This document shows, in pieces, positions 16,552-42,519 of a stretch of DNA of 48,576 nt. The stretch covers positions 1-48,576 of the IMG/VR virus record IMGVR_UViG_3300027746_000027. One strand, given 5' to 3'. Positions within the stretch are counted from its first letter, which is position 1, and the number at the start of each line of letters is the position of its first letter. Under the pieces are notes generated by a model. The model was given only the letters and a program-made list of their open reading frames with translations, was not told the origin of the DNA and did no database searches. The position numbers and the translations under genes were made by a program. This DNA comes from a virus.

Positions 16552-16559
16552 GGAAAGCT
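16552..16559 (+). promoter_or_regulatory. Late-gene boundary motif GGAAAGCT (first of at least 12)
   Basis: GGAAAGCT just after the sigma-gene stop and 37 nt before the portal start. Further exact copies begin at 18088, 18381, 24460, 27097, 35354, 36633, 39479 and 42491. Near copies are GGAAACCT at 23012 and 25892 and GGAAAACT at 41676. In every case the motif lies 26-42 nt before a start codon, usually within 10 nt after the previous stop. I saw none in the early region. It may be a late promoter element, an RNA processing site or a conserved recombination boundary. Confidence 0.7.
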
Positions 16560-16588
16560 CAGCTAAGCGACTGAGAGTACGGGTAGAG

Positions 16589-18085
16589 GTGCGATCCGAT
16601 CATCCTGGAACCGACCCGAGCCTTCCGAGTTTTCGGCATCCGATCCTCAGGGAACACGCCCAGGACCTGGAGCGTGCGTTTGATGCGTGGTATTGCCTGA
16701 GAGGCGAGGAAACGAAGAAGAAATACCTACCGAAGGAGGCGGCGGAACCGGCGAGCGCCTATACCGGCCGCCTTGGTCGTGCGGTGTTCTCTGATTTCTT
16801 CAGGTCTGGGATCGAAGCATTCGCCGGGGTGCTGTCACGGAGTGAGCTGAACAACCCACCGCCGACATTCGAGAAGGCCCAGGATAACGTGGACCTGGAA
16901 GGCAACAGCTTGCAGGCGTTCTGGCTCACCGTTGATGCCCTCTGCCTGCGCGATGGTGGGGTGCCGATCCTGGTGGAGATGCCTGATGGGCAGCCGACCG
17001 ATGGGGCCACCGAGGCGGCACAGAAGCGCCGCCCGTATCTGGTCAACCGCACCCGGGCGACCTGTCTGAACTGGCGCACGTCTGTCGTGGATTCAGTGGA
17101 GGTGGTGACCCGCTGCACCTTCCTGGAATGGGCGGAGGTGGATGACGGCGATGGTGAGTTCGGGGTGAAATATGAGGAGCGCTACCGGGTGATCGAACCG
17201 GGCAAGTGGAGCCTTTACAAGCTGATCAAACGGGCTGATAGCAGCCTGGCCCTGGAGTTGGTGGATCAGGGGCAGTACCTCGACGCCAAGCAGCAACCGC
17301 TCACGATCTGTCCGGTCGTCTGGTATCCGGCTGAGAAGGCGGGCTTCGGGAGGGGTGGCCCACCATTGCAGCAGGTGGTGGAGCACAACATCGAGCATTT
17401 TCAGATGAGGTCGGACCTGCGGGAGAAGACCCACAAGTGCGCCATGCCGGTTCCGGTGCGCAAGGGAGCGCCACCGCCGATGCCGGGGCAGGCGCCTGAG
17501 GCCCTGGTGATCGGCCCAAACACCGCGATCGACGTGGACAAGGATGGGGACTTCTTCTTCGCTGAGCCCTCGGCATCGTCCCTGGCGGAGCAGCGCAGCC
17601 AGATCGAGGCGGTGGAGACGCTGATTCAACAGCAGTTGCTCGGCTTCCTCAGTGGCGACAGCAAGCAGACCAAGACCGCCACCCAGGCCCAACTGGAGGG
17701 TGGTCGCACCCAGGTGAGCATCCGGGCGATGGGCGAGCGGAAGCGGTCGGTGATGCAGAGCATCCTGGCGATCTGGGTGCTTTACACCGGGGAAGAGCTG
17801 GCGGTGGGCGCTGGCCTGACGATGGATGAAAACGCCTACGACAAGCCGCTTGATGCACAGAGCGCATCGCAACTACAGGCCCTAGCTGGTGGCGTGGAGC
17901 TGATCAGTCAGGAGAGTGCAGTGGAGGAACTGCAGCGGGGAGGGTTCAACCGGGCGACAAGCAGCGTGCAGGATGAGATGGAGCGGATCCGCAGGGAGCG
18001 GCCGATGCTGGGGGCCCCGACACCCGGGCGGAATGACACGACCACACCGCTGGATCAGGTGGCGCCGACAACGCCGGGAGCGTGA
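16589..18085 (+). CDS. Portal protein (DUF4055-like)
   Basis: A 498-aa protein. Its start (HPILREHAQDLERAFDAWYC ... KKKYLPKEAAEP) and the segment YTGRLGRAVFSDFFRSGIEA with FAGVLSRSE match the DUF4055-type portal pattern (KYLP.....Y..RL.RA.F.......v....G...). A long helical C-terminus is present. The portal is the dodecameric vertex ring through which DNA is packaged. The GTG start at 16589 follows the GGAAAGCT motif and GGGTAGAG. Length is typical for a portal. Confidence 0.82.
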   Translation: MRSDHPGTDPSLPSFRHPILREHAQDLERAFDAWYCLRGEETKKKYLPKEAAEPASAYTGRLGRAVFSDFFRSGIEAFAGVLSRSELNNPPPTFEKAQDNVDLEGNSLQAFWLTVDALCLRDGGVPILVEMPDGQPTDGATEAAQKRRPYLVNRTRATCLNWRTSVVDSVEVVTRCTFLEWAEVDDGDGEFGVKYEERYRVIEPGKWSLYKLIKRADSSLALELVDQGQYLDAKQQPLTICPVVWYPAEKAGFGRGGPPLQQVVEHNIEHFQMRSDLREKTHKCAMPVPVRKGAPPPMPGQAPEALVIGPNTAIDVDKDGDFFFAEPSASSLAEQRSQIEAVETLIQQQLLGFLSGDSKQTKTATQAQLEGGRTQVSIRAMGERKRSVMQSILAIWVLYTGEELAVGAGLTMDENAYDKPLDAQSASQLQALAGGVELISQESAVEELQRGGFNRATSSVQDEMERIRRERPMLGAPTPGRNDTTTPLDQVAPTTPGA

Positions 18086-18117
18086 GCGGAAAGCTAAGCC
18101 GTAACCACGAGGCCCCC

Positions 18118-18270
18118 ATGGCTGAGCAACTTCACGAAGCGATTGCCGAGCTGATCTCCGAATCTGAATGCGGGCTCTACGAGGCCGTTGGTGTGCTGGA
18201 AGCGGTGAAGCATGAGGTGCTGCTGGCCTCCCTGGCTGGCGAAGAGGAAGGCGAAGAGGAAGGCGAGTGA
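18118..18270 (+). CDS. Very small acidic protein after the portal
   Basis: A 50-aa protein: an N-terminal helix AEQLHEAIAELISESECGLY, then EAVGVLEAVKHEVLLASL and an EEEGEEEGE tail encoded by a short GAAGAGGAAGGC repeat. It lies 30 nt after a GGAAAGCT motif. Function unknown; position suggests a head-associated or assembly-linked role. Confidence 0.65.
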   Translation: MAEQLHEAIAELISESECGLYEAVGVLEAVKHEVLLASLAGEEEGEEEGE

Positions 18271-18374
18271 GCGCCCCTGTCGTCACCGCCATCGGCCGCC
18301 GCTTGAGGCCCGCTGATGGCGTGCGGCAGGTGATCAAGGGCCCCAGGCCCGCGAACACCATCAAGAAGCCGTAG
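18267..18374 (+). CDS. Very small basic protein
   Basis: A 35-aa basic protein from GTG (VSAPVVTAIGRRLRPADGVR, then QVIKGPRPANTIKKP), overlapping the previous stop (GTGA). It is followed after 6 nt by another GGAAAGCT motif. Too short for any family call; the coupling is the main support. Confidence 0.5.
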   Translation: MSAPVVTAIGRRLRPADGVRQVIKGPRPANTIKKP

Positions 18375-18417
18375 TGCAGCGGAAAGCTCAGTCAGAGACC
18401 CCTGGCTGAGCTTCACC

Positions 18418-18933: not shown

Positions 18934-19010
18934 AACAGGAAGTAAACGACTTGCGCCGGGACGGTTGTGTTACAGGTTGTGAACCGGCCCACCCGCAAGC
19001 ACTTTGCTAG
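18831..19010 (+). CDS. Small helical protein, overlapping frame
   Basis: A 59-aa ORF from GTG 18831: VERCVYESTALQYQAKSKAH followed by LVATVLNLGILEYLKQEVND. It has a good AGGGG sequence 8 nt before the GTG. The amphipathic helical composition is better than that of the overlapping end of the 18418 frame. Its C-terminal Cys-rich end runs into the third copy of the TTGTGAAC promoter element. Function unknown. Confidence 0.42.
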   Translation: MERCVYESTALQYQAKSKAHLVATVLNLGILEYLKQEVNDLRRDGCVTGCEPAHPQALC

Positions 19011-19028
19011 GGACGAATGCGTTACTAT
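18976..19028 (+). promoter_or_regulatory. Repeated early promoter/operator, copy 3
   Basis: GTTGTGAAC at 18976 and TACTAT at 19023, again 47 nt apart, in GACGAATGCGTTACTATG followed by GGGGACGGGAGG. It drives the AT-rich gene at 19089. A CCGGT...ACCGG inverted repeat lies in the leader (about 19064-19080). Confidence 0.55.
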
Positions 19029-19088
19029 GTGGGGACGGGAGGCGAATTGCTCTCCCACTACAGGCCGGTCACGTAACCGGATGAAATC

Positions 19089-19460: not shown

Positions 19461-19524
19461 CAATAAGCTTAATACGTGCCGCCGATCCTCAGTCGACACA
19501 ACCATTTTCACTGCATCATTAGTC

Positions 19525-19740: not shown

Positions 19741-19982
19741 TGGCTGACCCTACGGGCCCAGAGCGCAAGCGTCGCTTGCGAGCCAGAAGGGCTGGTCTAT
19801 TACCACCTGCGGTAAAAATTCCCTGCACAGCCCCTGGTTGCACCACTCTCCACACTGGCGTTCATGGTGATAAGTGTTCTCGCTGCTGGGAACAACTCAC
19901 GGCTGAAGGGCGAGCTAATCGAGCAGCGCGGCAAGCACGATTCAGGGTGAAGCGGGACCAAGTGCGTGAGCGGAAACCCTAG
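19740..19982 (+). CDS. Small zinc-ribbon protein (paralogue of the 2898 gene)
   Basis: An 80-aa protein with the same layout as the one at 2898-3155: PTGPERKRRLRARRAGLLPP, then CTAPGCTTLHTGVHGDKCSR followed by CW, and a basic tail. The C-x4-C pair replaces C-x2-C. Two copies in one phage, in early and late regions, suggest duplication with divergence. Possible nucleic-acid binding; function unknown. The start overlaps the previous stop. Confidence 0.72.
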   Translation: MADPTGPERKRRLRARRAGLLPPAVKIPCTAPGCTTLHTGVHGDKCSRCWEQLTAEGRANRAARQARFRVKRDQVRERKP

Positions 19983-21865: not shown

Positions 21866-21998
21866 GGTCGGTGGTGGTGAATGGTTTGCCGAAGGTGCGA
21901 CATCCCCTCCGTGGAAGGAAACCCTCCGGCCCTTGCATCCTAAGCCACTGCGCTTTCGTAAGCCACTACGGCAAGCTAGGGAAACGCAACAACAACAG

Positions 21999-22643: not shown

Positions 22644-22769
22644 GGGGGGTGCCCGGGGGTGGCGTGTGCTACCTCAGATTTCCTGAATCAGCTCAGCACT
22701 TCTTTTTCGGCTGCCTACCTTGACCACTGCCGCGCCTGGTTGGTGCCGCCCATCCGAGCAACCTGGGCG

Positions 22770-23002: not shown

Positions 23003-23019
23003 AGGTTTCCCGGAAACCT
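23003..23019. promoter_or_regulatory. Palindrome at a GGAAACCT boundary motif
   Basis: AGGTTTCC (23003-23010), C, GGAAACCT (23012-23019): 8-bp arms with a 1-nt centre, 21 nt before the start of the neck gene at 23040. The right arm is the variant boundary motif. It could bind a dimeric regulator. Confidence 0.45.
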
Positions 23020-24456: not shown

Positions 24457-24490
24457 GGCGGAAAGCTAAGCCGTTCGGTCAGGCTGACCC

Positions 24491-25198: not shown

Positions 25199-25743
25199 GG
25201 GAGCGGCTCCACGCTGCAGAGCGGCCGATCGCCAATCTCCACGCCTGGTACGCCACCAACCACCGGGACACCGAGAAGCGCCGCGAGGCCTTCACGCTGG
25301 AGGAGTTCTGCTGGTTCCTGCCGCCCAAGGATGAGGACGGGGACCAGGGGCCACCTGCTGCGGCTGGTGCTGCGATGCTGGCCCTCTGCGAGCTACGCCA
25401 GGTGCCGGGCTTCGCCATGGCCTTCTACGACGCCCTGGCCACCGCCGGGGAGGGGACTCCCCAGCCTCCGCTGCTGGCCCTGCTGGCCGATGATGCCCTG
25501 CTGCTCGCCCCGGTGGAACATCAGGACGGTTGGAGGGGCCTCCTGCTGGCGGAGGACACCGCAGCGGGGAAAGAGCGCACCTTCAGGCTGGCGGATGATC
25601 CGCAGCGGCTGGTAACCCTGCTGGTGCCGATCGCTCCCGATGCTGCAGCGCCAGCATGGGCGGCGGCAGATTCATGGCTGCCCATCGCTCGATCTCCCGG
25701 TAGCACTGCTCCACCGCCTGCGCTGCTGCCTGAATTGTCGTGA
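24491..25743 (+). CDS. Tail assembly chaperone fusion, GT-type (-1 frameshift)
   Basis: Ribosomes slipping back one base at 25045-25051 would continue in the frame that runs open to 25743, adding about 230 residues for a fusion of about 417 aa. The downstream frame reads GKAQPAPTDWGSIFWRLHDL, WPHSREFTRERFAWCPETF and FTLEEFCWFLPPKDED. It is clearly coding and rich in Trp and Phe. It has no convincing start of its own near 25050. This mirrors the G/GT pair of lambda-like tails. Confidence 0.78.
25045..25051 (+). other. Programmed -1 frameshift heptamer GGGAAAG
   Basis: In the zero frame the sequence is read G GGA AAG, the canonical X XXY YYZ arrangement and the same heptamer used by phage lambda G/T. 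Shifting by -1 gives GGG AAA G and joins the open downstream frame. Confidence 0.8.
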
Positions 25744-25846
25744 AATAGCCCAGACTCCACCGCCTGCCAGCCCACCACACGCGAGCCTGGTAGGGGCGCC
25801 GTGAGTTATGGGGGCAGTGGGAAACGCCGCGAGGGTAAGAAGCCAT
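25583..25846 (-). CDS. AP2-like DNA-binding protein, antisense to chaperone gene end
   Basis: An 87-aa protein. Residues about 4-55 match an AP2 domain: YPRGVSHCPHNSRRPYQARV, then WWAGRRWSLGYFTTIQAAAQ and AVEQCYREI. The family pattern is RGV.......W.A.i...G....LG.F.t..eAa.Ay. AP2 domains in phages occur alone or in homing endonucleases. Here there is no nuclease part. The gene lies antisense to the last 160 nt of the GT frame and in the 189-bp gap before the tail tube gene. It may be a remnant of a mobile homing gene or an active regulator. Confidence 0.55.
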   Translation of the reverse strand: MASYPRGVSHCPHNSRRPYQARVWWAGRRWSLGYFTTIQAAAQAVEQCYREIERWAAMNLPPPMLALQHRERSAPAGLPAAADHPPA

Positions 25847-25932
25847 GCCAGAGCTTTCCCGGCTAAGCCGCTTGCAGGGCTTAAGCCGTGGGGAAACCTG
25901 CGAGGTAACGCACCGGCAGCGCCGGAACAATC

Positions 25933-26766
25933 ATGGCCCAAACATGGGAACAGGCCTACGGGTTCAGGTTCTACTTCTCGCCGATGAAGTCGGCCTCAGT
26001 GGATCTGACTCAGGTGGCCCTCGGTGGCTTGGGCACTGGGAAGTTCATCGACAGCAGCACCACCCAGTCAGCTACTGCCACGGTGATCACCGCCGGCACG
26101 GGTGACACCTTCGCCCTGGGGGTTGGCACCAAGGCGATCACCAACGCGGCCCTGGCCTCCAACGTGGTCACGCTGACCTTTGCTGCTGCCCATGGCATCA
26201 CGGTGGGCAAGAGGATCGCGGTGAAGGACTTGCCCGCTCCTTTCACCAGCCTCAACGGGTCCTTTGTGGTGGCCTCGGTGACCACCTCTAGCCCGTTCAC
26301 GCTGACCTATGCCCTCACCGGCACCAATGTCACCTCAGGCGCCGTGAGCGCTGGCGTGGTGGCCCCCGGCCTGCTGCTCGATGGCACCGATGCTCCGTTC
26401 CGCCTTCTGGGCCTGAGCAACATTCAGCCGAGCAACAGCACCACGAAGGAATCGGTCGTCATCTATGACGATGAGGCTGGGTCGTATGACACCCCGATCC
26501 CGACCAGGCGGTCGAAGGATTGGAGCTTGGAAGGTGCGATGAACTACTCAGATCCCGCCTGGCGTGCCATGCGGTTCTGCGAGGAGTACAACGTGACCGA
26601 GAAGCTGATGTGCAAATACGCCGTCATCGGCCCGAACAACGGCAAGCAGGTGGAGTACGGCTTTGGGTTTTTCGAGAACTACCAGCCGGACCAGGTCGCC
26701 GGTGGGGTCATTAAGTACAAGGTGAGCCTGGCGGGCTACGGCAAGGTGGGTATCGATCTGCTCTGA
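25933..26766 (+). CDS. Major tail (tube) protein with inserted beta domain
   Basis: A 277-aa protein in the tail-tube position. The N-terminus (TWEQAYGFRFYFSPMKSASV) and the C-terminal two fifths (RRSKDWSLEGAMNYSDPAWR ... VAGGVIKYKVSLAGYGKVGI) look like the tube domain. Residues about 68-138 are an inserted beta domain (ITNAALASNVVTLTFAAAHG, ITVGKR.., SPFTLTYALTGTNVTSGAV) that recurs in the proteins at 27123 and 38554. Many copies of this protein would form the tail shaft. The start lies 41 nt after a GGAAACCT motif. Confidence 0.78.
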   Translation: MAQTWEQAYGFRFYFSPMKSASVDLTQVALGGLGTGKFIDSSTTQSATATVITAGTGDTFALGVGTKAITNAALASNVVTLTFAAAHGITVGKRIAVKDLPAPFTSLNGSFVVASVTTSSPFTLTYALTGTNVTSGAVSAGVVAPGLLLDGTDAPFRLLGLSNIQPSNSTTKESVVIYDDEAGSYDTPIPTRRSKDWSLEGAMNYSDPAWRAMRFCEEYNVTEKLMCKYAVIGPNNGKQVEYGFGFFENYQPDQVAGGVIKYKVSLAGYGKVGIDLL

Positions 26767-27041: not shown

Positions 27042-27059
27042 CCAACCCCTGATCACGTG

Positions 27060-27084
27060 GCCCCGGTTCTGCCGGGGCTTTTTT
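27060..27084 (+). terminator. Rho-independent terminator after tail-tube operon
   Basis: GCCCCGG (27060-27066), loop TTCTG, CCGGGGC (27072-27078), then TTTTTT. A GGAAAGCT motif follows at 27097, so transcription must restart for the tail genes downstream. This supports the motif having a promoter-linked role. Confidence 0.9.
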
Positions 27085-27122
27085 GTGTGCCTGCCGGGAA
27101 AGCTGAAGGGACCGAGGGACCC

Positions 27123-27827
27123 ATGACGCTGCCGACGACCGCATTGGAGCTCTACGACCTGCTGGTGGGTGATGCGGTGGTGACTGCGGCGCTGGGCACC
27201 TACCTGCCAAGCGGTGGCACGGCGATCCCGGCCATCGCCGTGGTCCGCCGCAATGAGCAGCTACCCGAGGGGGTGGCCGTGGCTGGCTTGGAGGTGGTGA
27301 TCTTCAGCAACCCCGACTACAGCCCCGAGGCGATGCTCACCGGGGAGACAGGGCTGAACCCACAGTTCCGGCTGTACGTGTCCGAATGGTCCGCCCTGCA
27401 GGTGGCCCGAAAGGCGATCACCAATGCCGCCCTGGCATCGGGCACGGCCACGCTTACCTTCGCAGCGGCCCATGGCTTCGGCGTGGGCAAACAGGTGTCG
27501 GTGAGCGTTCTGCCTGCCCCCTTCGCCGCCCTTAATGGCACCTTCACGGTGACTGCTACTACCACAGCCTCACCGTTCACCCTCAGCTATGCCCTGGCTG
27601 GCAGCACCATCGCCTCGGCTGCCGTGGCTGCTGGTGTGGTGGTTCCATCGCCCGCAGTTGATCTGAGGGCCCTGCAGGCGCTGACCCAGCGGATCATCAG
27701 CCTGCTCCCCGGCTGCCGTGCGGTGCCGATCGGTGGTGACCCCCCCGGGCAGGGGATTGGGGTGCTCGATCAGTACGCCCTGTCGTGGACCAATCCAACC
27801 CAGTGCGTCGTGACGCCGGAGAACTGA
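27123..27827 (+). CDS. Tail-terminator-like protein with inserted beta domain
   Basis: A 234-aa protein. The outer parts (LPTTALELYDLLVGDAVVTA ... PQFRLYVSEWSALQVA and VDLRALQALTQRIISLLPGC) read as one globular alpha/beta tail-terminator-type domain. It is split by an insert (ITNAALASGTATLTFAAAHG ... SPFTLSYALAGSTIASAAV) nearly identical in layout to that of the tail tube protein. The DNA of the two inserts is also clearly related. ATG 27123 is preferred, 26 nt after GGAAAGCT; an earlier in-frame ATG (27057) overlaps the terminator. Confidence 0.7.
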   Translation: MTLPTTALELYDLLVGDAVVTAALGTYLPSGGTAIPAIAVVRRNEQLPEGVAVAGLEVVIFSNPDYSPEAMLTGETGLNPQFRLYVSEWSALQVARKAITNAALASGTATLTFAAAHGFGVGKQVSVSVLPAPFAALNGTFTVTATTTASPFTLSYALAGSTIASAAVAAGVVVPSPAVDLRALQALTQRIISLLPGCRAVPIGGDPPGQGIGVLDQYALSWTNPTQCVVTPEN

Positions 27828-27828
27828 G

Positions 27829-30800
27829 ATGGCAGGGAATGAGTGGGTTGTAAAGATCACAGCTGACGTCAAGGACGTTCTTGATGCCTCGCGCAAGATC
27901 GGGCAGGCAGGGCAGCAAGCAGGCGGAGCTTTCCAGCAGGGCTTTTCTGGCTTTGACAAGATTATGGAGCGGATGCGTGGCCAGCTCCAAGAATTAAAAG
28001 AAGGTCTCGGGGGTAATACCACAACCCTGGCTGGGTTAAAGGCCAAACTTGGCGAGTTGGGCCAAACACTGGAAAAGGCGGCTATTGGCTCGAAGGAGTT
28101 TGTGGCAGCACAAAAAGAAATTGCCAAAACACAGCAAGAAATCAATAATGCACTGAAGGGATTTGGAGCAGGCGAAGGAACTATAAACGGGTTGCGCAAC
28201 AAAATGGCAGCGTTAAACGAAACGCTTGGCCAGACTGTAATCGGCTCTAAAGAGTTCATAGGTACTCAGAATCAGATAGCACAAACCCAGGAAAAGCTAA
28301 ACACGGCTTTGAGTGGATTTAGTGGCAACGAAAAGACTATCGAAGGGTTAAATAACAAGCTAGCAGGGTATAACGCAACTCTGCAAAAAGCAGAAATTGG
28401 CTCGAAGGAGTTCGTAGCAGCCCAAAAGGGGATTGCCAAAACACAGCAAGAAATCAATACGGCGCTGAATGGATTCAGCGGTAGGGATCAGACGCTCACT
28501 GGTCTACGGGGTCGGCTGTCGGAGCTGAACCAGACCCTGGAGAAGACGGCGATCGGGTCACGGGAGTTCAAGCAGACGCAGCGGGAGATTGCTGCGGCCC
28601 AACGGGACGTGGACAAGGCGCTGGGGCAGACCGGCATGGCGGCTAAGGCGCTGGGGGGAGCTCTGTCGGGGCTGGGGGCCCTGGGGGTTGGCTTCTCGGT
28701 GGTCGGGTTCCTGAAGGGATCGGTCGAGAAGGCCATGGAGCTGGAGACGATCACCCGGAAGCTGTCGAACACCCTTGGCCCGCAGGGTGCAGCCGGTGCG
28801 CTGGGGTTTACGCGAGAGCTGGCAGACAGGCTGGGGCTTTCCTATGCTGATCTGTCAAACAATTTTAGTACGTTTACCGCAGCCGCTACAGCAGCAGGCG
28901 TTCCGCTGGAACAGCAGAAGGGGCTGTTTGCTGCCGTGTCAAAAGCGGGGCAAGCGCTTGGCTTGTCCAATGATGAAATCAGCGGATCTTTCTTAGCACT
29001 TCAACAGACAGCCTCTAAGGGGCGGGTCAGTATGGAGGAGCTGGGGAGCCAACTTGGAGAAAGACTCCCGATTGCCCTTGCCGCAGCAGCAAAAGGGCTA
29101 GGAATGAGCACTTCTGCCCTTATCAAACTTGTTGAATCAGGGCAGTTAACGGTAACACAGTTTTTCCCTGCTTTGACTAAGGGCTTGGAAGACTTGACCG
29201 CAGACACCGGTGGTGTGCCAACTGCAGCGCAGAATTTTGCCAGGTTGCAAAACGCTTGGGATGACCTGCAGGCCAGCTTTGGAACAAGCCTGCTCCCAAC
29301 GGTTACGGCAGGCGTAAAGCGATTATCCGAATCATTCAAAGAATTTAAGACACTCTCGGAGGGATTCGAGCTATACAAGGCATTTGGCCTGGCGGGGGAC
29401 GAGGCAATTCAACTGAGCGGGCACTTAAAGCAAGTACAGCTCACATATGAGCTAACCAGTGATCAAGCAAGGAAGCTGCTAAGCAACGCTATTGCGAGTT
29501 CCGGTGCAGTTCGTAACTCGTTTGGCGTGCTCAATACCGAAGGTGATAAATTTGCAAAAATTCAAACGGGCTTAGTTGATGAGGCCAAGAAATTCGTTGA
29601 AACACATAGGAACGAAAAGGGAGAAATAATTGCGATTTCAATTGCCGAAAAAGATAGACTTGAGCTGGCTAAGCAGCAGAACGCCGAAAATACAAAAGAG
29701 CTGACAACGAAGGGCCAGATTGCCGAAGCAAGCCAGAAAGTCCTCAAGGCCGAGATGGAAGGCCTTGTTGCTGTTCAGCAGGCCAAGGTCAACCTTGGCC
29801 AGGCCCTGGTCAGCCTTGAGGAGTCTCGATTCGGGATCATCCGCAGCCGCAACAGCTTTGAGTTGAAGGATGCCCAGGACCGCAGGGCAAGCGAGGCAGA
29901 GCTTGACGTTATCAAGCGGCGTGGTGAGGCGATTGAGTTGGCGGCGCTCAATTCCAAGTACGCAGCCTTGCTTCAACAGCAGGCACTGCAGCGGGATCTG
30001 GTGTCACTGCAGCAACAGCAGGCAACACTTGAGGCTGATGTTGCGTCGAAAACCGCAAAATTAGAGCTAGATAAAGCACAAATAAAGCTAGACGAAGCAA
30101 GGCTGTCGAACAACAAAGAGGCAGTCAAGAAAGCAGAGGTTGAGCTTGAGATTAAACAGAAAGATGTGGACATTGCCAATTCCAAGCTCCAGATCCTTGG
30201 CCAGACCCAGCTGATCGAGGAACGGATCGCCAAGGCAAACAATGAAACTGCCCGCAACAGCGTCATTGACGAAGCTGCCTCCAAGGGCCTAGCCCTGTCC
30301 GCCGATGGCATGTTCAAGGCCAGTAAGGCCACCGCTGACCAGTTCAGGAGCCTTGGTGATTCCCTGAAGGTTCCCCTCAGCCAGCAGGGGGCCTTTGCTC
30401 AGTTGGCTGCCGATGTTGGCCTCAAGGTGCGCGACACCGGGAGGGGCTACTACGAGATCGGGCAGGCACTGGGCAAGACCGCATCGCCCGCCGCCAACAA
30501 CATCCGGGATTACATGAGCGTGGCGGCCAAGGCCACGGGGGTGGCGAAGACCCAGGCGTCTGGGCTTGCCGGCAACATGAGCAACGCCGCCAATTCGGCG
30601 AATGCGTTCTACCGCTCCCTGGCCGCAGCCTCCGGTCTGCCCCCTGCCCGCTTCACGGGTGGCCCGGTGGATGCTGGCCAGACCTACCGGGTGAACGACG
30701 GCCCGAGCGGGTTGAGCCTCGGCCAGGAGGCGTTCCTGTCAGCTTCCGGGGCCCTGTCCCTGATCAACCGGCCGCTGAACAGCCTGTGGACCGCTCCCTC

Positions 30801-31041
30801 CCGAGGCACCGTGATCCCGGCGAGCATCACCAGCCGCCTCAAGGATTCAGGTGTCCTGGGGGGTGGTGCCGGGGTACTGCGTGGTGGCTCCGATCCAGCG
30901 GTGGCCCATCTGAGCCTGGCGATCGGAAACCTGAGCCAGGAAGTGGCCGAGCTGAGGCGCAAAGCGTGGAATGTGTCGGTCGGAGTGCGTGGCGATGGAT
31001 CCGGCCTGAGGCTGGCGCAGACGATGGCGCGGATGCGCTGA
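27829..31041 (+). CDS. Tape measure protein
   Basis: A 1070-aa protein, the longest in the window, that sets tail length. Residues 65-269 are four repeats of about 52 aa containing GSKEFVAAQKEIAKTQQEIN. A Gly-rich hydrophobic segment (ALSGLGALGVGFSVVGFLKG) follows. Then comes the tape-measure N-terminal-type domain (SKGRVSMEELGSQLGERLPI ... LVESGQLTVTQFFPALTKGL). Long coiled coil occupies about 620-800, and the C-terminus is Gly/Ser-rich. GC content drops in the repeats and around 28.9-29.7 kb, suggesting mosaic origin. It starts 1 nt after the preceding stop. Confidence 0.92.
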   Translation: MAGNEWVVKITADVKDVLDASRKIGQAGQQAGGAFQQGFSGFDKIMERMRGQLQELKEGLGGNTTTLAGLKAKLGELGQTLEKAAIGSKEFVAAQKEIAKTQQEINNALKGFGAGEGTINGLRNKMAALNETLGQTVIGSKEFIGTQNQIAQTQEKLNTALSGFSGNEKTIEGLNNKLAGYNATLQKAEIGSKEFVAAQKGIAKTQQEINTALNGFSGRDQTLTGLRGRLSELNQTLEKTAIGSREFKQTQREIAAAQRDVDKALGQTGMAAKALGGALSGLGALGVGFSVVGFLKGSVEKAMELETITRKLSNTLGPQGAAGALGFTRELADRLGLSYADLSNNFSTFTAAATAAGVPLEQQKGLFAAVSKAGQALGLSNDEISGSFLALQQTASKGRVSMEELGSQLGERLPIALAAAAKGLGMSTSALIKLVESGQLTVTQFFPALTKGLEDLTADTGGVPTAAQNFARLQNAWDDLQASFGTSLLPTVTAGVKRLSESFKEFKTLSEGFELYKAFGLAGDEAIQLSGHLKQVQLTYELTSDQARKLLSNAIASSGAVRNSFGVLNTEGDKFAKIQTGLVDEAKKFVETHRNEKGEIIAISIAEKDRLELAKQQNAENTKELTTKGQIAEASQKVLKAEMEGLVAVQQAKVNLGQALVSLEESRFGIIRSRNSFELKDAQDRRASEAELDVIKRRGEAIELAALNSKYAALLQQQALQRDLVSLQQQQATLEADVASKTAKLELDKAQIKLDEARLSNNKEAVKKAEVELEIKQKDVDIANSKLQILGQTQLIEERIAKANNETARNSVIDEAASKGLALSADGMFKASKATADQFRSLGDSLKVPLSQQGAFAQLAADVGLKVRDTGRGYYEIGQALGKTASPAANNIRDYMSVAAKATGVAKTQASGLAGNMSNAANSANAFYRSLAAASGLPPARFTGGPVDAGQTYRVNDGPSGLSLGQEAFLSASGALSLINRPLNSLWTAPSRGTVIPASITSRLKDSGVLGGGAGVLRGGSDPAVAHLSLAIGNLSQEVAELRRKAWNVSVGVRGDGSGLRLAQTMARMR
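28021..28635 (+). repeat. Four 156-bp coding repeats in the tape measure gene
   Basis: Four copies of a 52-codon unit, beginning near residues 65, 117, 169 and 221. Each carries a GL+.KL..LN.TL....IGSKEF...Q..IA.TQ core. Copies 1-3 are AT-richer than copy 4. Change in copy number would change tail length in steps. Confidence 0.8.
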
Positions 31042-32604: not shown

Positions 32605-34904
32605 TGCAGGATTGGACCTATCAAGAAACAATCAGCCCCGCTGAAACTTTCACGGTTGAATACAGGCTGAAGGTTGGTGACAGCTATGTGACGATGACGG
32701 ATCAGTTAGATTTTGTCTCGGAGTCAAAGGTTTACACATTATATACGACAATTCCCTATATCGACAAGGACGGTAAAAACCAAAGCCAGGACGTGGTGAC
32801 TAGCACCATTTCAACGACGACCACCTGCGTTGGCGCCGCCAACCCGACGCGGTGGAAGTCCAAGCTGGAGGCTGGTAGCCCGGCGCGTCCTGGGGAAACG
32901 CTGATCAAGAGCACCGAATCGTTCAACAAGTACATCATCACTCAAGATGGACCTGTTGAAACGGAAGTTACCACATATGAATACGAGCCGACGATTGCCT
33001 TTGCTGGTGGCCTTGCGATTGACAATTACAAGAACATTGATCTAGGGCTTGGAAATGTACTGGTCCGCAAGACCATTGTGCAAAAGGAGGAAAATAAAGT
33101 AGCTGACCTGTCAAAGCAATCCACGATTGTCTATCAGGCCTGGGGGACCACCTCGGCGGGGAAGACAGTTGCCTCCACCATCATGGCGGCACTGAAGAGG
33201 GGTTCCGAGGAGGATCGAATCAGCGGCACCTACACGCTTGTAGACCGGATGACCTCCCTGGTCTGCAACGGTGTTGAGAAGACAATCAACATCGGGCGAG
33301 GAAGTGCTCCGGCTCTCCCAACCAAGCTGGACCAGCAGAATGAGAAGCTGATCAGGGTTCAAGATACCGTCAAAACTAACAGCGGTTGGGATGTATCCAG
33401 CCCCGTGGGTTACTCCTACAAGAACCAATCAACCAACCTGTCTTACGGTCGTGCCGGGGTTAGTGCTACGGGTAGTTACTACATGCAGTTTGCCCCGGAT
33501 AGCTACCTGCGCCCCGCCGCAGATGCTGGAGACAACGGCACCGGGTTGAATTATGTGTGGGTGTCCAGTAGTGCCGCCGCCTACGTCTACGGCAGGGCGG
33601 TCTACTCCATCCTCTCAGGGATGGCCAACGGCAAGAGCCTCACCACCGAGCTGCGCAACATCCCCAGCGAACCGATGGGTACCCTCTACCTGGAGGCCGC
33701 TGGAACGGTGGGCAGGTTCCGCGCCAACGGCACCACGTTCGCCTTTGACTCGGAGGGGCTGATCGTGGGCTGTGATGCCATGCTCGATGGTGGTGCGGGC
33801 CTGGTGGCCAATGCAACCGGGGCTGACTGGTTCCCGATGATGGTGCCAGCGGCCAACCTGCCGACCGTGACGCCAGCGGGCAACAACGACCCGGCCCTGG
33901 CCAACACGATCAACGCCCCGAACGGGTTCGATCCGATGGCACCGGGGAGTATTTGGGCCAGCTTTGGGGCCACTGGCGTGGAGGGGGATGTCTATGCGAT
34001 GGAGCTGACCAGGGCCAATGTGGTGGCAGCGGCGGCGGAGAACGTGCTGCGGGAGAGCGTGAGCCGTTCGCTGGGTTGGTTACTGGATGCCCCCTACGAC
34101 GTCACTCCTACAACGGTTTCACTGACAAGCGTGGCTGTTTCAAGGGGGTTTGCCGTATCAGGACCTGGTGTAATGACAAACCTCGCTGACGTGGCGTTTG
34201 TTTTTGCTGGATCGGGATCTGGTGTAATTACGAGCCTTTCCATGGCGACCGAGAACAGGCTGTTTATTGGCTCAGGCTCTGGCGTGATTGCAGCGGTTAG
34301 CGTTGGACCAAACCGGACATCAGGGGTTGCGGCGCCATTACTTGGATCTGGTCCGGCCAGTAGCTACACCGGTTGGGACAGGATTGTAAATGCCAACCAG
34401 GACAACGCATCGATTTCGTTTGGTAGCTGGCCATTTTCTATTGTTCTTGCATCATCTAACTGGGACAGTTGCTTTATAGGGTCTAATGGTTACGCTACAT
34501 TTGGTTCGCCATACAATATCAATACCGGACTTGGCCCCAGTGTCCCAGCGGCTCCCAAAATAATGTTTGGGGCTGGGGATGTTTCCTGGCAACGTGTATA
34601 CACTCAGAAGTCCATTCACTTTGCTAGATTCCGATGGGAAGGTCATTCCACCGCCTCTGGTGTTTCACCTGGAAGCTCCACCAGGATTATTGAGGTCACT
34701 TTCTGGAATAGCCGTCCATTTGTAGAGGTGCGAACCGGCGACTGGGGAAGCGCAAGCACACTCATGCTGGCATCATCGACGACGTCTTACGCGTCATCGT
34801 CCTCACTTGGCGCCAATCAAAGCTGGGTCTTTGAGAGAACCAACCCTGCAGGCACAAGCTGGACGCTTTACGGTAGCAATTATGTGAATTTCTCGGAAAT
34901 CTGA
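32604..34904 (+). CDS. Large tail tip / receptor-binding protein
   Basis: A 766-aa protein, beta-rich throughout. The first 480 residues look like a central tail-tip protein. Residues about 505-570 contain three Gly-rich repeats (SGPGVMTNLADVAFVF, GSGSGVITSLSMATENRLFI, GSGSGVIAAVSV) that form a flexible or beta-helical linker. The last 190 residues (SFGSWPFSIVLASSNWDSCF, ... RIIEVTFWNSRPFVEVRTGD) form a separate beta-sandwich-like domain suited to receptor binding. GC content falls after 34.1 kb, as expected for an exchangeable host-range module. Confidence 0.68.
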   Translation: MQDWTYQETISPAETFTVEYRLKVGDSYVTMTDQLDFVSESKVYTLYTTIPYIDKDGKNQSQDVVTSTISTTTTCVGAANPTRWKSKLEAGSPARPGETLIKSTESFNKYIITQDGPVETEVTTYEYEPTIAFAGGLAIDNYKNIDLGLGNVLVRKTIVQKEENKVADLSKQSTIVYQAWGTTSAGKTVASTIMAALKRGSEEDRISGTYTLVDRMTSLVCNGVEKTINIGRGSAPALPTKLDQQNEKLIRVQDTVKTNSGWDVSSPVGYSYKNQSTNLSYGRAGVSATGSYYMQFAPDSYLRPAADAGDNGTGLNYVWVSSSAAAYVYGRAVYSILSGMANGKSLTTELRNIPSEPMGTLYLEAAGTVGRFRANGTTFAFDSEGLIVGCDAMLDGGAGLVANATGADWFPMMVPAANLPTVTPAGNNDPALANTINAPNGFDPMAPGSIWASFGATGVEGDVYAMELTRANVVAAAAENVLRESVSRSLGWLLDAPYDVTPTTVSLTSVAVSRGFAVSGPGVMTNLADVAFVFAGSGSGVITSLSMATENRLFIGSGSGVIAAVSVGPNRTSGVAAPLLGSGPASSYTGWDRIVNANQDNASISFGSWPFSIVLASSNWDSCFIGSNGYATFGSPYNINTGLGPSVPAAPKIMFGAGDVSWQRVYTQKSIHFARFRWEGHSTASGVSPGSSTRIIEVTFWNSRPFVEVRTGDWGSASTLMLASSTTSYASSSSLGANQSWVFERTNPAGTSWTLYGSNYVNFSEI

Positions 34905-35350: not shown

Positions 35351-35380
35351 TCGGGAAAGCTCTGATAAGCGGTTGCAGTC

Positions 35381-36629: not shown

Positions 36630-36655
36630 ACCGGAAAGCTCCGGGGTAGTTCGCG

Positions 36656-36666
36656 GGCGTGATGCC
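36656..36666 (+). repeat. GGCGTGATGCC motif, isolated copy
   Basis: One copy of the motif that occurs three times at 37501-37575. It lies between GGAAAGCT and the scaffold start. Confidence 0.55.
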
Positions 36667-37463: not shown

Positions 37464-37500
37464 AAGGTCGGGAAATATCGGGCAACAGGGATCGACTGAT

Positions 37501-37575
37501 GGCGTGATGCCCAGGTCGATCCCAAATCAATCAGCACGGCGTGATGCCCTGCCGTGAATCAACCGGCGTGATGCC
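37501..37575 (+). repeat. Three GGCGTGATGCC repeats before the capsid gene
   Basis: Copies at 37501-37511, 37538-37548 and 37565-37575, with spacings of 37 and 27 bp, in the 140-bp gap between scaffold and capsid genes. The motif has GGC/GCC ends around GTGAT and occurs again at 36656. Possible operator cluster or translational control of the highly expressed capsid gene. Confidence 0.7.
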
Positions 37576-37603
37576 ACCACCGACCTTCACCTGATTTTCC
37601 CCA

Positions 37604-38515
37604 ATGGGATTAACCATTCTGGAGGCCGCCAAGACGGAGACCAATCCGCAACGGGTGGCTGTTATTCGTGAGCTTGCTGAAAGCGAGCTGATCAGCATCA
37701 TGCCGTTCCGCAATGTGCAGGGCGGTCTGGACTATGCCGTGGAAGCTGAGCTTCCCGCTGTTGGCTTCCGTGGGTACAACGAGACCTACGACGAAACCTA
37801 TGGCGTTATCAATCCCCAGTATGAGCGCCTCAAGTTCTTCGGTGGCGACATCGACGTTGACATTCAACGCATCAAGAACTATGGCCCCCAGGCCAAGGCC
37901 GAGCAGATCCAGATGAAGGTGCGCTCCCTGCGCCTCACCTTCGAGGACTACGTGATCAACGGCGATGAGTCGACTGATCCCCGCGCCTTCGATGGCCTCA
38001 AGGCCCGCGTCAATACGGCTAGCTCCCAGGCTGTCAACGTGAACGGTGCCCTCTCCCTCACAGCTCTCGATGAGCTGATCGATGCGGTGGATGGGGATCA
38101 GAAGATCCTGCTGATGAACAAGAAGATGCGTCGGCGCCTTTCGGCCGCCAGCCGCAACACTTCCATCGGTGGCTTCATGTCCTACGAGCAGGACGCCTTT
38201 GGTCGTCGCGTCTCCTTCTACAACGATGCCCGCATCGTGGTGACGGACACCAACGCCCAGAACACGCAGATCCAAGGTTTCACCGAAACCTCCAGCTCCA
38301 CCAGCATCTACTGCGTGGCGTTCGGCGATCTGCAGACCACCGGCATCCAAGGCCCTGCTGCTGCTGGCTATGGCATCGACATCAAGGAGTTCGGCGAAGT
38401 TCCTGATGCTCCCGTCGATCGCACCCGGATCGACTGGTCGGTTGGCATGGCGATCATGAACGGTCGTTCTGCCGCCCGTGCCTACGGAATCACCGATGCT
38501 GCGGTGACCGCTTGA
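37604..38515 (+). CDS. Major capsid protein (HK97-like)
   Basis: A 303-aa protein. The pattern EAAKTETNPQRVAVIRELAE, then ISIMPFRNVQGGLDYAVEAE, fits an HK97-fold capsid protein N-arm and E-loop. The middle (RSLRLTFEDYVINGDE, NGALSLTALDELIDAVDGDQ, KILLMNKKMRRRLSAA) and the C-terminal P-domain strand (GIDIKEFGEVPDAPVDRTRI, DWSVGMAIMNGRSAARAYGI) are classical. Length is typical for an unprocessed subunit without a delta domain. High GC and regular codon use fit high expression. Confidence 0.9.
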   Translation: MGLTILEAAKTETNPQRVAVIRELAESELISIMPFRNVQGGLDYAVEAELPAVGFRGYNETYDETYGVINPQYERLKFFGGDIDVDIQRIKNYGPQAKAEQIQMKVRSLRLTFEDYVINGDESTDPRAFDGLKARVNTASSQAVNVNGALSLTALDELIDAVDGDQKILLMNKKMRRRLSAASRNTSIGGFMSYEQDAFGRRVSFYNDARIVVTDTNAQNTQIQGFTETSSSTSIYCVAFGDLQTTGIQGPAAAGYGIDIKEFGEVPDAPVDRTRIDWSVGMAIMNGRSAARAYGITDAAVTA

Positions 38516-38553: not shown

Positions 38554-39237
38554 ATGGCTCGTTCTACTGGTCTTACCCCCCGGCGGGGATACCAACTGGA
38601 TGCTGAAACCATCCTTCTCGGTGCTGTCAAAGCTGGCCCCCGTGGCCGTGCTGCTGAGACCCGCACCGGTGCCGCCCGTCTGCTGACCACCAACCTGGCC
38701 GCTCAGGATCAGTGGAAGCTGATCGCTGCCGGTGGCTCCAGCAACTCCGCTGGTGGCTATGTGCTGCAGGCCGCCCACGTTGCGGAGGGCGCCGCCCTGA
38801 GTTCAGCTTCCGCCTACACCAACATCGGCGTGGTCACCGCCACTGCTGGGCAAATCAACGAGGTGGCGATCAGCGGCAAGCAGATCCGTGAAGCCGTCCG
38901 GGTTGCCGGATCGATCACTGGTGATGTGCGGGTGGCTGCTCTTCGACTGCGCCCCGGCACCGGCACGCTGAGCATCAGCAACGTGGCGCTCACCTCCAAC
39001 GTGGCCACGATCACCCTGTCGGCCGCCCACACCATGCTGGTGGGGGAGATCGTCACGGTGGGCTGCTCCAACCCGCTGGTGAACGGCACCTTCACGATCA
39101 CGGCGGTGGCATCCACTACGTTCAGCTACGCCTCCACCCAGAGCAACATCACCAGCGCCTCGGCGACTGGCACCGTGACCAATGGCGCTGCCGCTCCGGC
39201 TGGCACCAACACGGTGGCCCTGGTTCCTGGCGAGTGA
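38554..39237 (+). CDS. Head decoration protein with C-terminal beta domain
   Basis: A 227-aa protein directly after the capsid gene. The N-terminal 90 residues (TPRRGYQLDAETILLGAVKA) fit a capsid-decoration or head fibre protein. The C-terminal domain (LSISNVALTSNVATITLSAA, HTMLVGEIVTVG, NGTFTITAVASTTFSYAST) is the same beta module that is inserted in the proteins at 25933 and 27123. It would be displayed on the head surface. Confidence 0.72.
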   Translation: MARSTGLTPRRGYQLDAETILLGAVKAGPRGRAAETRTGAARLLTTNLAAQDQWKLIAAGGSSNSAGGYVLQAAHVAEGAALSSASAYTNIGVVTATAGQINEVAISGKQIREAVRVAGSITGDVRVAALRLRPGTGTLSISNVALTSNVATITLSAAHTMLVGEIVTVGCSNPLVNGTFTITAVASTTFSYASTQSNITSASATGTVTNGAAAPAGTNTVALVPGE

Positions 39238-39281: not shown

Positions 39282-39296
39282 CCACTTTGGAGCCCC

Positions 39297-39488
39297 ATGA
39301 ACTTCCCGATTGGCTACGGCATCGACCAGGAGCAACCCCAACAGGTGACAGGTGAGCCCGAGGCCCAGGAGCCACCTGTGGAGCCTGCCTGCCCAATGCC
39401 GACCCGGAAGCGGGCACGGGTGAAGGGTGGGCGGTTTGCTGCTGATGACCCTAAGACCGAGCCTGATGAGGCGTGGGCGGAAAGCTAG
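39297..39488 (+). CDS. Small disordered protein
   Basis: A 63-aa protein rich in Glu, Pro and Gln (IDQEQPQQVTGEPEAQEPPV) with a basic stretch (TRKRARVKGGRFAADD). Its stop codon lies inside a GGAAAGCTAG motif. The KGGRFA segment recalls the GRFAS element of the basic proteins at 18418 and 22188, but the match is short. Function unknown. Confidence 0.55.
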   Translation: MNFPIGYGIDQEQPQQVTGEPEAQEPPVEPACPMPTRKRARVKGGRFAADDPKTEPDEAWAES

Positions 39489-39505
39489 GGCAGCAAGGCT
39501 GAATT

Positions 39506-40222: not shown

Positions 40223-41205
40223 TGAAAAGCGCTTTTCTGTTTGGTGGGACGGCTGATCTGCTGGCATTTGTGCAACCGTCTGCACTGGTTGATTATCAAT
40301 TTCGCTTGCAGGGAACGCTGACAAATTACGGCAGTGTTGGTGGATCGCTTTCACATACTCGCTCCGGCAATGGTACGTTTATTGGTAGCAACGGCCTATT
40401 GCAAACAGCCAGCACAAACGTTGCGAGGTTTGATTTCGATCCCGTGTCGCTGGCGCGGCGGGGATTGCTGTTTGAAGGGCAAGCATCCCAAATACTGCTT
40501 CAGTCAGAATCGTTAAACGTCTCGCCATGGGTTACCAGCACGACTACGGTAACAGCAAACAATGCGACAGACCCCAGCGGTGGCACAGGGGCTGAGTCAA
40601 TTGTAAATACCGGAACTACAAATGGCGCCTGGGTCAGACAGCTGATCACAACAGCACAAGCATCTGGAACGTATTACTTTTCGCTTTTTGCTGCTTCCAG
40701 TAATGCTACTTTATATTTAGACGCGGCCCCTTCAGTTGGGGATACAAGTAGCAGGGCGCTGGCAACGGTCAACCTTAGCACTGGCGCGGTAACTTATATT
40801 TCAAATCCAATTGGCGGAGCTACTGTTTCCTGCCTGCTTGGCGCTACTGGGTTTTGGAGAATTGTCAATTCTTTCAATTCAACTAATTTTCAAAGGTGCG
40901 AATTTAGAATTGGAGCCAGCACGTCAACGTCAGGCCCCGTGATTGCATGGGGAGTAAATTTAACAAAAGATTCCCTCAGTTCATACGTCCCGACAACTAC
41001 CGCAGCCGCAACCCGCTTCGCTGATGCCGCCAGCCTGACCGGCCTCCCGACAACGAACGTCACGCTGATCGAGAAACCAGCCGGCTGCGCAACTCTCAGC
41101 GCCGGCACCCTCACCCTCAACCCCGGCTACACAATTGACCGAATTATGGTGCTACCTGGCACCTATTCAGCTGATCAGGTGGCAACCATCCGAGGGCTGA
41201 TGTGA
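40222..41205 (+). CDS. Tail fibre-like protein with carbohydrate-binding-type domain
   Basis: A 327-aa protein. The segment VARFDFDPVSLARRGLLFEG, QASQILLQSESLNVSPW, then a beta sandwich (TYYFSLFAASSNATLYLDAA) and a closing YVPTTTAAATRFADA is a recurrent phage fibre pattern (R.DfdP......GLLiE....NLL..Se.l...W). Such domains are usually receptor- or glycan-binding. AT-rich compared with the capsid genes, typical for a host-range gene. Starts in the previous stop (TGATG). Confidence 0.75.
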   Translation: MKSAFLFGGTADLLAFVQPSALVDYQFRLQGTLTNYGSVGGSLSHTRSGNGTFIGSNGLLQTASTNVARFDFDPVSLARRGLLFEGQASQILLQSESLNVSPWVTSTTTVTANNATDPSGGTGAESIVNTGTTNGAWVRQLITTAQASGTYYFSLFAASSNATLYLDAAPSVGDTSSRALATVNLSTGAVTYISNPIGGATVSCLLGATGFWRIVNSFNSTNFQRCEFRIGASTSTSGPVIAWGVNLTKDSLSSYVPTTTAAATRFADAASLTGLPTTNVTLIEKPAGCATLSAGTLTLNPGYTIDRIMVLPGTYSADQVATIRGLM

Positions 41206-41663
41206 TGCCGTTCGTCATCGAGGTGCTCTGCTGGTGCCCTGATCAAGACTGCTTCCGGCAGGGCATTACGTCTCAGGTGTTCCCCGATGGCACCCCGCTG
41301 GCCACGCTGGAAGGCAACGTGCTGATCCCCGCTCCTGGCGTCCACATCGACGAGATCGGCCCAATCCAGCGCGACGAGGTAGTCACGATTGGTGGCCATC
41401 ACGTCAACATTGCGGCCACTGGTGCGGTTGCCGCAATGCTCACCACTGGCCTACCGCAGACCGGCACGATTTTCGAGCGGACCCATATCCTCGCTTTGAT
41501 CCCTGGCCTGGAATGGTCGGCCATGAGCAACCAGGGTGAGCCGCCAGGTTACCTCGGCCCCCAGGGGGTGAAGTTGTTCGATCGCTCGGCAGTAAATGCC
41601 CGCGCCCGAGTTTGGTACGTGAATGGAGACCAGCTGATCCCTGGCCCAGCACCTGGGGGCTGA
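41205..41663 (+). CDS. Hypothetical virion or host-range protein
   Basis: A 152-aa beta-rich protein (MPFVIEVLCWCPDQDCFRQG, ... HIDEIGPIQRDEVVTIGGHH). Three cysteines are near the N-terminus. The start overlaps the previous stop, so it is probably co-produced with the fibre protein, perhaps as a fibre chaperone or accessory. No domain recognised. Confidence 0.62.
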   Translation: MPFVIEVLCWCPDQDCFRQGITSQVFPDGTPLATLEGNVLIPAPGVHIDEIGPIQRDEVVTIGGHHVNIAATGAVAAMLTTGLPQTGTIFERTHILALIPGLEWSAMSNQGEPPGYLGPQGVKLFDRSAVNARARVWYVNGDQLIPGPAPGG

Positions 41664-41703
41664 GTGGTGCAGCCAGGAAAACTGAAGCAACGAACCGCAA
41701 TCA

Positions 41704-41967
41704 ATGGACCCGGCTGACCAATCCTCGGAGGACAGGTTTTCATTCTGGCCGCAGGTGATGCCGCAGGTTGCGGCGGGAATCATCCTTCTGGCGGTGGCTG
41801 GGATTGGTTATATCGGCATCACGGTTCCACGTCAGCTTGATCTGGTGCTTGAAAACCAGAAGGCAGTCCTGGCAAGGCAGGGTGCAACTGAGGGGAGGAT
41901 AGAAAAGGCTGAGGGCGACATCATCACGATTGACCGGCGGGTGACTCGCCTGGAGGTTCACCGATGA
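41704..41967 (+). CDS. Putative lysis membrane protein with coiled-coil tail
   Basis: An 87-aa protein with one membrane helix (VAAGIILLAVAGIGYIGITV) followed by a helical, charged tail (LENQKAVLARQGATEGRIEK). This N-in, single-span plus periplasmic or cytoplasmic coil layout is usual for holin-like or spanin-like proteins. It begins 28 nt after GGAAAACT and overlaps the next small membrane gene by 4 bp, forming a lysis-type pair before the wall enzyme. Confidence 0.68.
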   Translation: MDPADQSSEDRFSFWPQVMPQVAAGIILLAVAGIGYIGITVPRQLDLVLENQKAVLARQGATEGRIEKAEGDIITIDRRVTRLEVHR

Positions 41968-42167
41968 GTCGATACCTCGGAGCGTGCTTGGCCTTTGCTG
42001 GAGTCTGCTTAGTGGCCAGCGCAGCGGTTGGTGTTCTGGATTGGGCCTTCTGTCTTCAATCTGGCGGCGGCTCGGCCTGTCGAGGGTCGCGGGGTGATGC
42101 CATGGCGGCACTCAGCGGGGCGGCAACCAGCGCGATGGGCGTGGCGCTGCAGGATCGACAACCCTAG
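41964..42167 (+). CDS. Putative small membrane or lipoprotein lysis protein
   Basis: A 67-aa protein with an N-terminal hydrophobic helix (YLGACLAFAGVCLVASAAVG) and a Gly/Ala/Ser-rich remainder. Cysteines in the hydrophobic part (GAC, GVCLV) could fit a lipobox-like signal, so an outer spanin is possible. Overlapping start (ATGA) with the previous gene. The 3' end overlaps a convergent minus-strand gene by 4 bp. Confidence 0.6.
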   Translation: MSRYLGACLAFAGVCLVASAAVGVLDWAFCLQSGGGSACRGSRGDAMAALSGAATSAMGVALQDRQP

Positions 42168-42457
42168 GCAGGTTGTTGTGCGTGGTACGCATTTAGTAAT
42201 TCATCGTGCCATGGCGCTAGGTCATCTGGCTTTGTATCGCCCCTGGCAATGATGATCGGCTCAAAATTAACGACCTCAGCCTTTGTGCTTGTGATCATCT
42301 TTACGGTTATGCCAACAATTCCGCGATGAATACAGGACGCTGAAAACATTGTGCCGCCCGGTAGAAGGTCAAAAGCACGGCCCATAATCCCCAGGCCTGG
42401 CCTTCCTTCAAACGGGAACACCCGTTCAAGGTCCCAGGAAAATGCGGCGGTGGGCAT
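42164..42457 (-). CDS. Hypothetical minus-strand protein in lysis region
   Basis: A 97-aa protein (FSWDLERVFPFEGRPGLGIM, ... GRAFDLLPGGTMFSASCIHR, VVNFEPIIIARGDTKPDDLA) with alpha/beta composition and no known motif. ATG 42457 is preferred because it does not overlap the divergent L,D-transpeptidase leader; the longer reading starts at 42508. Being antisense in a lysis cassette is unusual. Confidence 0.58.
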   Translation of the reverse strand: MPTAAFSWDLERVFPFEGRPGLGIMGRAFDLLPGGTMFSASCIHRGIVGITVKMITSTKAEVVNFEPIIIARGDTKPDDLAPWHDELLNAYHAQQPA

Positions 42458-42519
42458 TGTGCCATCGCGTGATGCCACCACAGGTTGCCTGGAAAGCTGA
42501 TGGGACACAAGAAGAAATC

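Follow-up and report, generated by a model that had tools for sequence, protein, structure and literature searches.

What does a short, oriented word do for a phage when it recurs ahead of one late gene after another? The question is raised by a single virus record of 48,576 bases, IMGVR_UViG_3300027746_000027 (analyzed whole and called the window here). A first-pass annotation had listed twelve copies of GGAAA(G/C/A)CT upstream of its structural and lysis genes, and had suggested a −35-like element for the phage sigma factor, or else an RNA processing or recombination boundary. We consider it likely that those freshwater and marine cyanosiphophages that carry a terL-linked group-3 sigma factor use the motif, GGAAAGCT, as the −10 type element of compact late promoters. 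Throughout, "late" denotes structural and lysis genes assigned by homology rather than by measured timing.

All twelve listed copies are real, and the list proved incomplete. GGAAAGCT occurs nine times on the plus strand and twice on the minus strand of the window; these 11 copies stand above chance (1.9 expected on both strands in dinucleotide-keeping shuffles, with 0 of 100 shuffles reaching 11), and the GGAAAVCT class as a whole has 14 plus-strand and 4 minus-strand members where 4.3 are expected. A 17-nt weight matrix trained on relatives only found 14 plus and 2 minus sites at score 14, compared with 0.6 per strand in shuffles; this fixed matrix was used for scoring, a version refined by expectation-maximization having drifted. 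Every GGAAAGCT site falls between the sigma gene and the lysis (YkuD-domain) gene.

The exact plus-strand copies lie 37 nt before the portal GTG 16589 (16552..16559), 30 nt before ATG 18118 (18088..18095), 37 nt before TTG 18418 (18381..18388), 31 nt before GTG 24491 (24460..24467), 26 nt before ATG 27123 (27097..27104, immediately after a terminator at 27059-27084), 27 nt before ATG 35381 (35354..35361), 42 nt before the scaffold ATG 36675 (36633..36640), 27 nt before ATG 39506 (39479..39486), and 29 nt before ATG 42520 of the YkuD-domain gene (42491..42498). Three plus-strand variants had also been listed: GGAAACCT at 23012..23019 (its ATG, 23040, is 28 nt away, and a minus-strand copy at 23003-23010 stands back to back with it) and at 25892..25899 (41 nt before the tail protein ATG 25933), and GGAAAACT at 41676..41683 (28 nt before ATG 41704). 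The spacing of 26-42 nt originally given for this set is confirmed. New to the list are GGAAACCC at 19972, GGCAAGCT at 21970..21977 (plus, 29 nt before ATG 21999), GGAAATCT at 34895..34902 (plus, 30 nt before ATG 34925), and a weak variant, GGAAATAT(CGGGCAACAG), at 37471..37478 on the plus strand, which is kept in relatives and leaves a long leader to the major capsid gene, whose ATG at 37604 is 133 nt away. On the minus strand, a copy at 22683 precedes a minus-strand open reading frame (ORF), GGAAAGCT at 25852..25859 lies 13 nt before the ATG of an 87-aa gene (25583-25846) that is kept in relatives, and GGAAACCT at 43514..43521, likewise absent from the earlier list, lies 31 nt before the GTG of a conserved 73-aa ORF (43269-43490).

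To follow these junctions beyond the window, we collected 71 related loci through portal and capsid scans and compared six genomes gene by gene (the window and five relatives, gene starts in the relatives coming from a simple caller of our own). The motif holds its place at homologous junctions: in all 31 loci that cover the junction of the sigma and portal genes, GGAAAGCT separates the sigma stop from the portal start. It is also the most strand-biased 8-mer of the relatives' set, with 174 forward and 14 reverse occurrences. Forty non-redundant sites give the consensus GGAAAGCT-V-A-G-S-C-R-N-A-A; upstream of the motif, these 40 sites share no conserved column, and no word was found there at a fixed place. 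Across the six genomes, 22 of 23 late plus-strand genes with a divergent upstream neighbor have the motif 11-48 nt before the start, as do 33 of 85 with a same-strand gap of more than 20 nt, compared with 1 of 64 translationally coupled genes and 0.8% of random positions. Only 6 of 243 early genes carry it, in agreement with the earlier impression that early genes lack it.

The motif also follows genes across strands. Minus-strand genes in the late region have it on the minus strand; these are ORFs of 87, 96, 73 and 72/77 aa, all conserved among relatives, and substitutions in the 96-aa ORF fall mostly at third codon positions. At two divergent gene pairs, back-to-back motifs fill the entire gap of ~57 bp as two units of 27-29 nt. 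Together these arrangements indicate that the motif goes with the downstream gene, and not with the genome strand or the upstream stop. The dyad at 23003/23012 was at one point considered as a palindromic operator, and we dropped this when relatives proved to have a conserved short minus-strand ORF there with its GTG at 29 nt, a layout that points to back-to-back promoters. The fixed start-codon distance and the conservation at homologous junctions disfavor a recombination boundary.

The distance from motif to start codon falls into discrete classes. Among 74 plus-strand sites in the six genomes, 34 lie 27-31 nt from the start codon and 5 at exactly 13 nt, with none at 15-22 nt. The 13-nt class is genuine: homologues of window gene 27123 have the motif 13 nt from the ATG (their sequence is GGAAAGCTGAGGC-ATG), and conservation of the protein begins at this methionine. 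If transcription started near position 13, the 13-nt class would be leaderless and the others would have leaders of at least 13 nt; the range without sites would mean leaders of 1-9 nt. The gap in spacing fits leaders of zero or at least ~10 nt.

The terL-sigma gene order recurs in three annotated cyanophages (PSS2, S-CBS2 and S-CRES1), whose deposited gene starts served as a yardstick. PSS2 has six forward and no reverse copies of GGAAAGCT, five of them 28-43 nt before annotated starts (0.3 expected); for GGAA[ATG]GCT it has 13 forward copies, 11 at starts (0.5 expected). The pattern GG[AC]ANNCTA occurs 30 times forward and twice in reverse in S-CBS2 (19 at starts, 1.4 expected) and 23 times forward and twice in reverse in S-CRES1 (14 at starts, 1.2 expected). 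When sites were shifted to form a null, GG[ACT]ANNCT at starts numbered 26 versus 4.4 in S-CBS2, 30 versus 4.3 in S-CRES1, 29 versus 3.0 in PSS2 and 18 versus 1.7 in the window. Control phages without a terL-linked group-3 sigma were at background for the same pattern (Cr-LKS4, 1 versus 1.3; S-LBS1, 3 versus 1.4; Mwe-JY26, 1 versus 1.9), and none of the three has it at 26-34 nt before a start.

The general element, GGNANNCT, precedes late genes of PSS2, S-CBS2 and S-CRES1 mostly at 26-34 nt and sometimes at exactly 13 nt, examples of the short class being the S-CBS2 portal site (66316) and PSS2 85692, which directly follows a terminator. The pattern itself fixes GG, the A at position 3 and CT at positions 6-7 in the sites that it selects. 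It does not impose two further biases: A is strongly over-represented at position 8 in the two Synechococcus phages, and purines are in excess at positions 13-14. Variants GGTATACT, GGCATACT and GGAATACT in S-CRES1 and S-CBS2 read as GG plus a −10 box, and the first two also resemble the SigB −10, GGGTAT (PMC9847131). A pattern search in other viruses returned 81 stretches, which outside this phage family look like chance matches. A host promoter was also considered and rejected: 16 Cyanobium genomes contain a single GGAAAGCTVAGSCRG, about what chance would give. The first-pass annotation knew of no described phage with this code; the motif is in fact common to these three phages, and we found no description of it in the open-access literature searched, subscription papers lying outside that search. 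The accessible part of the PSS2 genome paper reports no such motif and searches for sigma-70 promoters as the sole promoter type.

At some sites the motif overlaps a predicted terminator. Three S-CBS2 sites and the homologues of the 18381 site (seven loci in addition to the window) have a hairpin with the motif region as its 5' arm, and a T-run follows that stops shortly ahead of the start codon; the window copy keeps the hairpin, with a degraded T-run. Predicted folding energies are −12 to −23.5 kcal/mol for RNA that contains the motif and 0 to −3.8 for RNA beginning at position 13. Motif-carrying RNA should therefore terminate before the gene while RNA from position 13 escapes, so that the mRNA is predicted to begin inside the hairpin. 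As modeled, these nested terminators favor a promoter over leader, translation and processing models. In addition, 10 of 86 sites, where 1.9 would be expected, have a T-run that ends no more than 35 nt upstream. Sigma-70 promoters in the late region are not enriched (5 found, 4.8 expected). Structure prediction confirms the terminator ahead of 27097, and the earlier hint that transcription restarts behind it is supported.

These structures bear directly on the idea that the motif is a 5'-leader RNA element, a translation enhancer or ribosome-binding substitute for the late genes of a phage that uses little Shine-Dalgarno. Such an element would account for the fixed start-codon distance and for the missing motif before translationally coupled genes, and its position would resemble that of the Start-Associated Sequences (SAS) found in cluster K mycobacteriophages and proposed to act in translation (PMC3203893). 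Yet mRNA carrying the motif would terminate before the start codon at the 18381 homologues and the three S-CBS2 sites, early genes manage without the motif in the same host, and spacings of 13 nt and 27-31 nt are incompatible with one ribosome geometry. Nor do three 16S rRNA loci of Cyanobium offer the motif a complement of 8 nt; they were taken from neighbors in the genus, the Cyanobium bin of a relative having yielded no 16S. We regard a leader element as unlikely. A conserved RNA hairpin, AGC-GGAAA-GCT, was examined separately and set aside, being present at some sites only.

A little less probable again is an operator for a phage DNA-binding protein (a repressor or activator), in the manner of stoperators, with the 87-aa AP2-like protein or a repressor as candidates. 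The sites are asymmetric and oriented, lie in short intergenic gaps and are in some cases back to back; the phage has a serine integrase; and TAAGCC words are enriched upstream of motif sites. Against this, the motif belongs to late genes and is absent near early ones, keeps a fixed distance to the start codon, and has −10-like variants in S-CBS2 and S-CRES1. Transcription would moreover have to restart past the nested and upstream terminators, yet the late region shows no enrichment of sigma-70 promoters.

Cleavage by an endoribonuclease is very improbable, although T4 RegB provides a precedent in cutting GGAG, a GGA-containing site, in intergenic regions (PMC3014915). The nested terminators and the divergent genes both disfavor a processing boundary, and no such nuclease was recognized among the window proteins.

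If the motif is a promoter, the most likely reader is encoded beside it. The sigma factor gene lies between terL and portal at 15482..16546 on the plus strand and matches PHROG sigma families (E 8e-16). Searched against the PDB, the family profile finds the sigma factor 8x6g_H (E 1.5e-5), and the PSS2 sigma gives a stronger result, with 8x6g_H (2e-9), FliA and other sigma factors among its matches. In these searches the phage sigmas come closest to SigB-type, FliA and other sigma factors. Residues 88-173 of the window sigma model match sigma domain 2 (8b3z, Z 13.3, root-mean-square deviation 1.5 over 78 residues), in a weak model with a mean predicted local distance difference test score (pLDDT) of 61. 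Pfam finds region 2 alone in all four phage sigmas, below cut-off in three. Region 4 gave no confident match in Pfam or in a separate model of the C-terminal part; it is possibly absent, and its absence would fit the missing −35. Co-occurrence in four lineages, together with gene order, suggests that this group-3 sigma reads the motif. The first-pass annotation's notion that the motif signals transcription in connection with the phage sigma is supported. Its −35 role can be dismissed for practical purposes: −35 boxes of some extracytoplasmic function sigma factors do begin GGAA-like, as the motif does, but starts 13-31 nt downstream leave no space for a −10 and a transcript start, which from a first G 13 or 26-31 nt away would fall inside the genes (in the 13-nt class this excludes the role outright), region 4, the reader of −35 elements, is undetected, and the comparison across phages agrees with a −10 type element.

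The compact promoter that we favor would work as follows. Over the four lineages the element is GG-N-A-N-N-C-T, usually followed by A or G. Positions 2-7 would form the −10 hexamer, with A and T at its two most important places, and GG would supply an extended −10. No −35 is conserved, and transcription would start near motif position 13 (0-based), where purines prevail. A start codon at 13 nt would then yield a leaderless mRNA, and one at 26-34 nt a leader of ~13-20 nt. Most late genes or clusters not translationally coupled to an upstream neighbor have a copy of their own, most likely read by host RNA polymerase with the phage group-3 (SigB/SigF/FliA-like) sigma. Late timing of these transcripts is predicted as well.

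A wider scenario is a serious possibility that we advance tentatively. A separate phage line may have evolved a late system like that of T4 gp55: a group-3 sigma without detectable region 4, an 8-bp extended −10 as the whole promoter, leaderless or very short-leader mRNAs, and a promoter nested in places in the terminator of the preceding gene, stopping read-through while new transcripts escape. If true, this would add, beyond the T4 group, an independent case of late promoters that consist of a −10 alone; the terminator-nested promoter would be a simple insulation of neighboring genes. Sigma factors of unassigned target have been noted in cyanosiphophages since the 2009 PSS2 genome; the sigma target becomes testable through genome-wide predicted promoters and a predicted start nucleotide, available for four lineages of which three are isolates.

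Several observations weigh against the promoter reading. Fifty-two of the 85 predicted late genes with a same-strand gap of more than 20 nt are below threshold (some are doubtful ORFs or have variants), the major capsid gene has the weak variant only, far upstream, and two late genes after it have none. Two plus-strand GGAAAVCT-class copies (30925, 36409) fall inside coding sequence, and the motif core is G+C-richer than usual −10 boxes. Sites within the freshwater clade are mutually non-independent, and gene starts in the relatives depend on our simple caller. The common pattern was refined on the annotated phages, so exact p-values are not quotable for it; the PSS2 counts of GGAAAGCT and the controls are unaffected. 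Finally, S-LBS1 and Cr-LKS4 have sigma factors and no motif, which limits the link to the terL-linked group-3 sigma of four lineages.

The phage itself is probably temperate. Besides terL (14115-15485), the portal (16589-18085) and the tape measure gene (27829-31041), the window has a serine integrase at 43651. Among annotated capsid proteins, PSS2 and a Microcystis phage provide the closest to its own (44-47% identity), a megablast against isolated phages found no match at the DNA level, and a Cyanobium metagenome bin contains a relative. The record ends in a run of ~20 C (48555-48576), probably a sequencing or assembly artifact. Early genes (1-14000) are motif-free in the window; the uncoupled ones mostly lack a Shine-Dalgarno and often have CA-rich leaders ending CACCACCNACC-ATG. 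Three structural proteins (25933-26766, 27123-27827, 38554-39237) share a repeated segment of the ITNAALASGTATLTFAAAHG type that is variably present in homologues; relative G009, for example, lacks it in its 27123 homologue.

The window has other features of note. A second repeat, GGCGTGATGCC, forms a short hairpin (GGC-GTGAT-GCC): three copies stand in the 140-nt major capsid leader (37502-37576), one before the scaffold ATG (36657-36666, GGGCGTGATGCCCC) and one before the YkuD gene (42467-42476). It is kept in relatives, also precedes scaffold and capsid in marine PSS2 (83381, 84232), and is perhaps an RNA operator of capsid genes. TAAGC(C/G)GT occurs near the motif at 25882, 24467, 18095 and 35366, and also in an early divergent gap at 5591, where it is mirrored in relatives. 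The conserved 87-aa minus-strand protein (25583-25846) lacks an HNH part but is similar to the AP2-like C-terminal portion of HNH endonucleases (PHROG 99, E 2e-5), which makes it a possible DNA-binding regulator.

How does the proposed promoter compare with known systems? Stoperators of cluster A mycobacteriophages are likewise asymmetric, oriented, intergenic sites; they are bound by the immunity repressor, stop transcription and are spread over the genome, with early regions included (PMC9283540), whereas the motif here belongs to late genes only (6 of 243 early ones) and is tied to gene starts. The SAS/ESAS of cluster K, too, are short asymmetric words in a single orientation just upstream of many start codons; they contain AGGAG, belong to the non-structural half of the genome and leave 3-7 bp to the start codon (PMC3203893), so that the SAS word, GGGATAGGAGCCC, differs from ours in both sequence and distance (13 or 26-34 nt here). 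Group-3 sigma promoters such as that of SigB, GTTTAA-N15-GGGTAT (PMC9847131), share a −10 that starts with GG, a likeness seen also in the S-CRES1 variant GGTATACT, and a SigB/SigF/FliA-type sigma is encoded in the same genome; unlike them, the phage element ends in CT rather than AT, and the stretch 12-17 nt ahead of it shows no conserved −35, be it GTTT or TAAA. T4 late promoters are 8 bp long, of the extended −10 type, and are read by gp55 without a sigma-4 equivalent (PMC2988020). In T4, gp55 has gp33 and the sliding clamp, gp45, as partners. Like them, the element described here is short, would lie near −10, lacks a −35, occurs about once per late transcription unit and is probably read by a phage sigma; the T4 sequence is TATAAATA, compared with GGAAAGCT, or in general form GGNANNCT, and unlike gp55 the sigma matches domain 2 of SigB/FliA/SigA type, is of the SigB/SigF/FliA type and is encoded between terL and portal. 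PSS2 (P-SS2) has the same order terS-terL-sigma, a group-3 sigma (ORF003) and the same motif.

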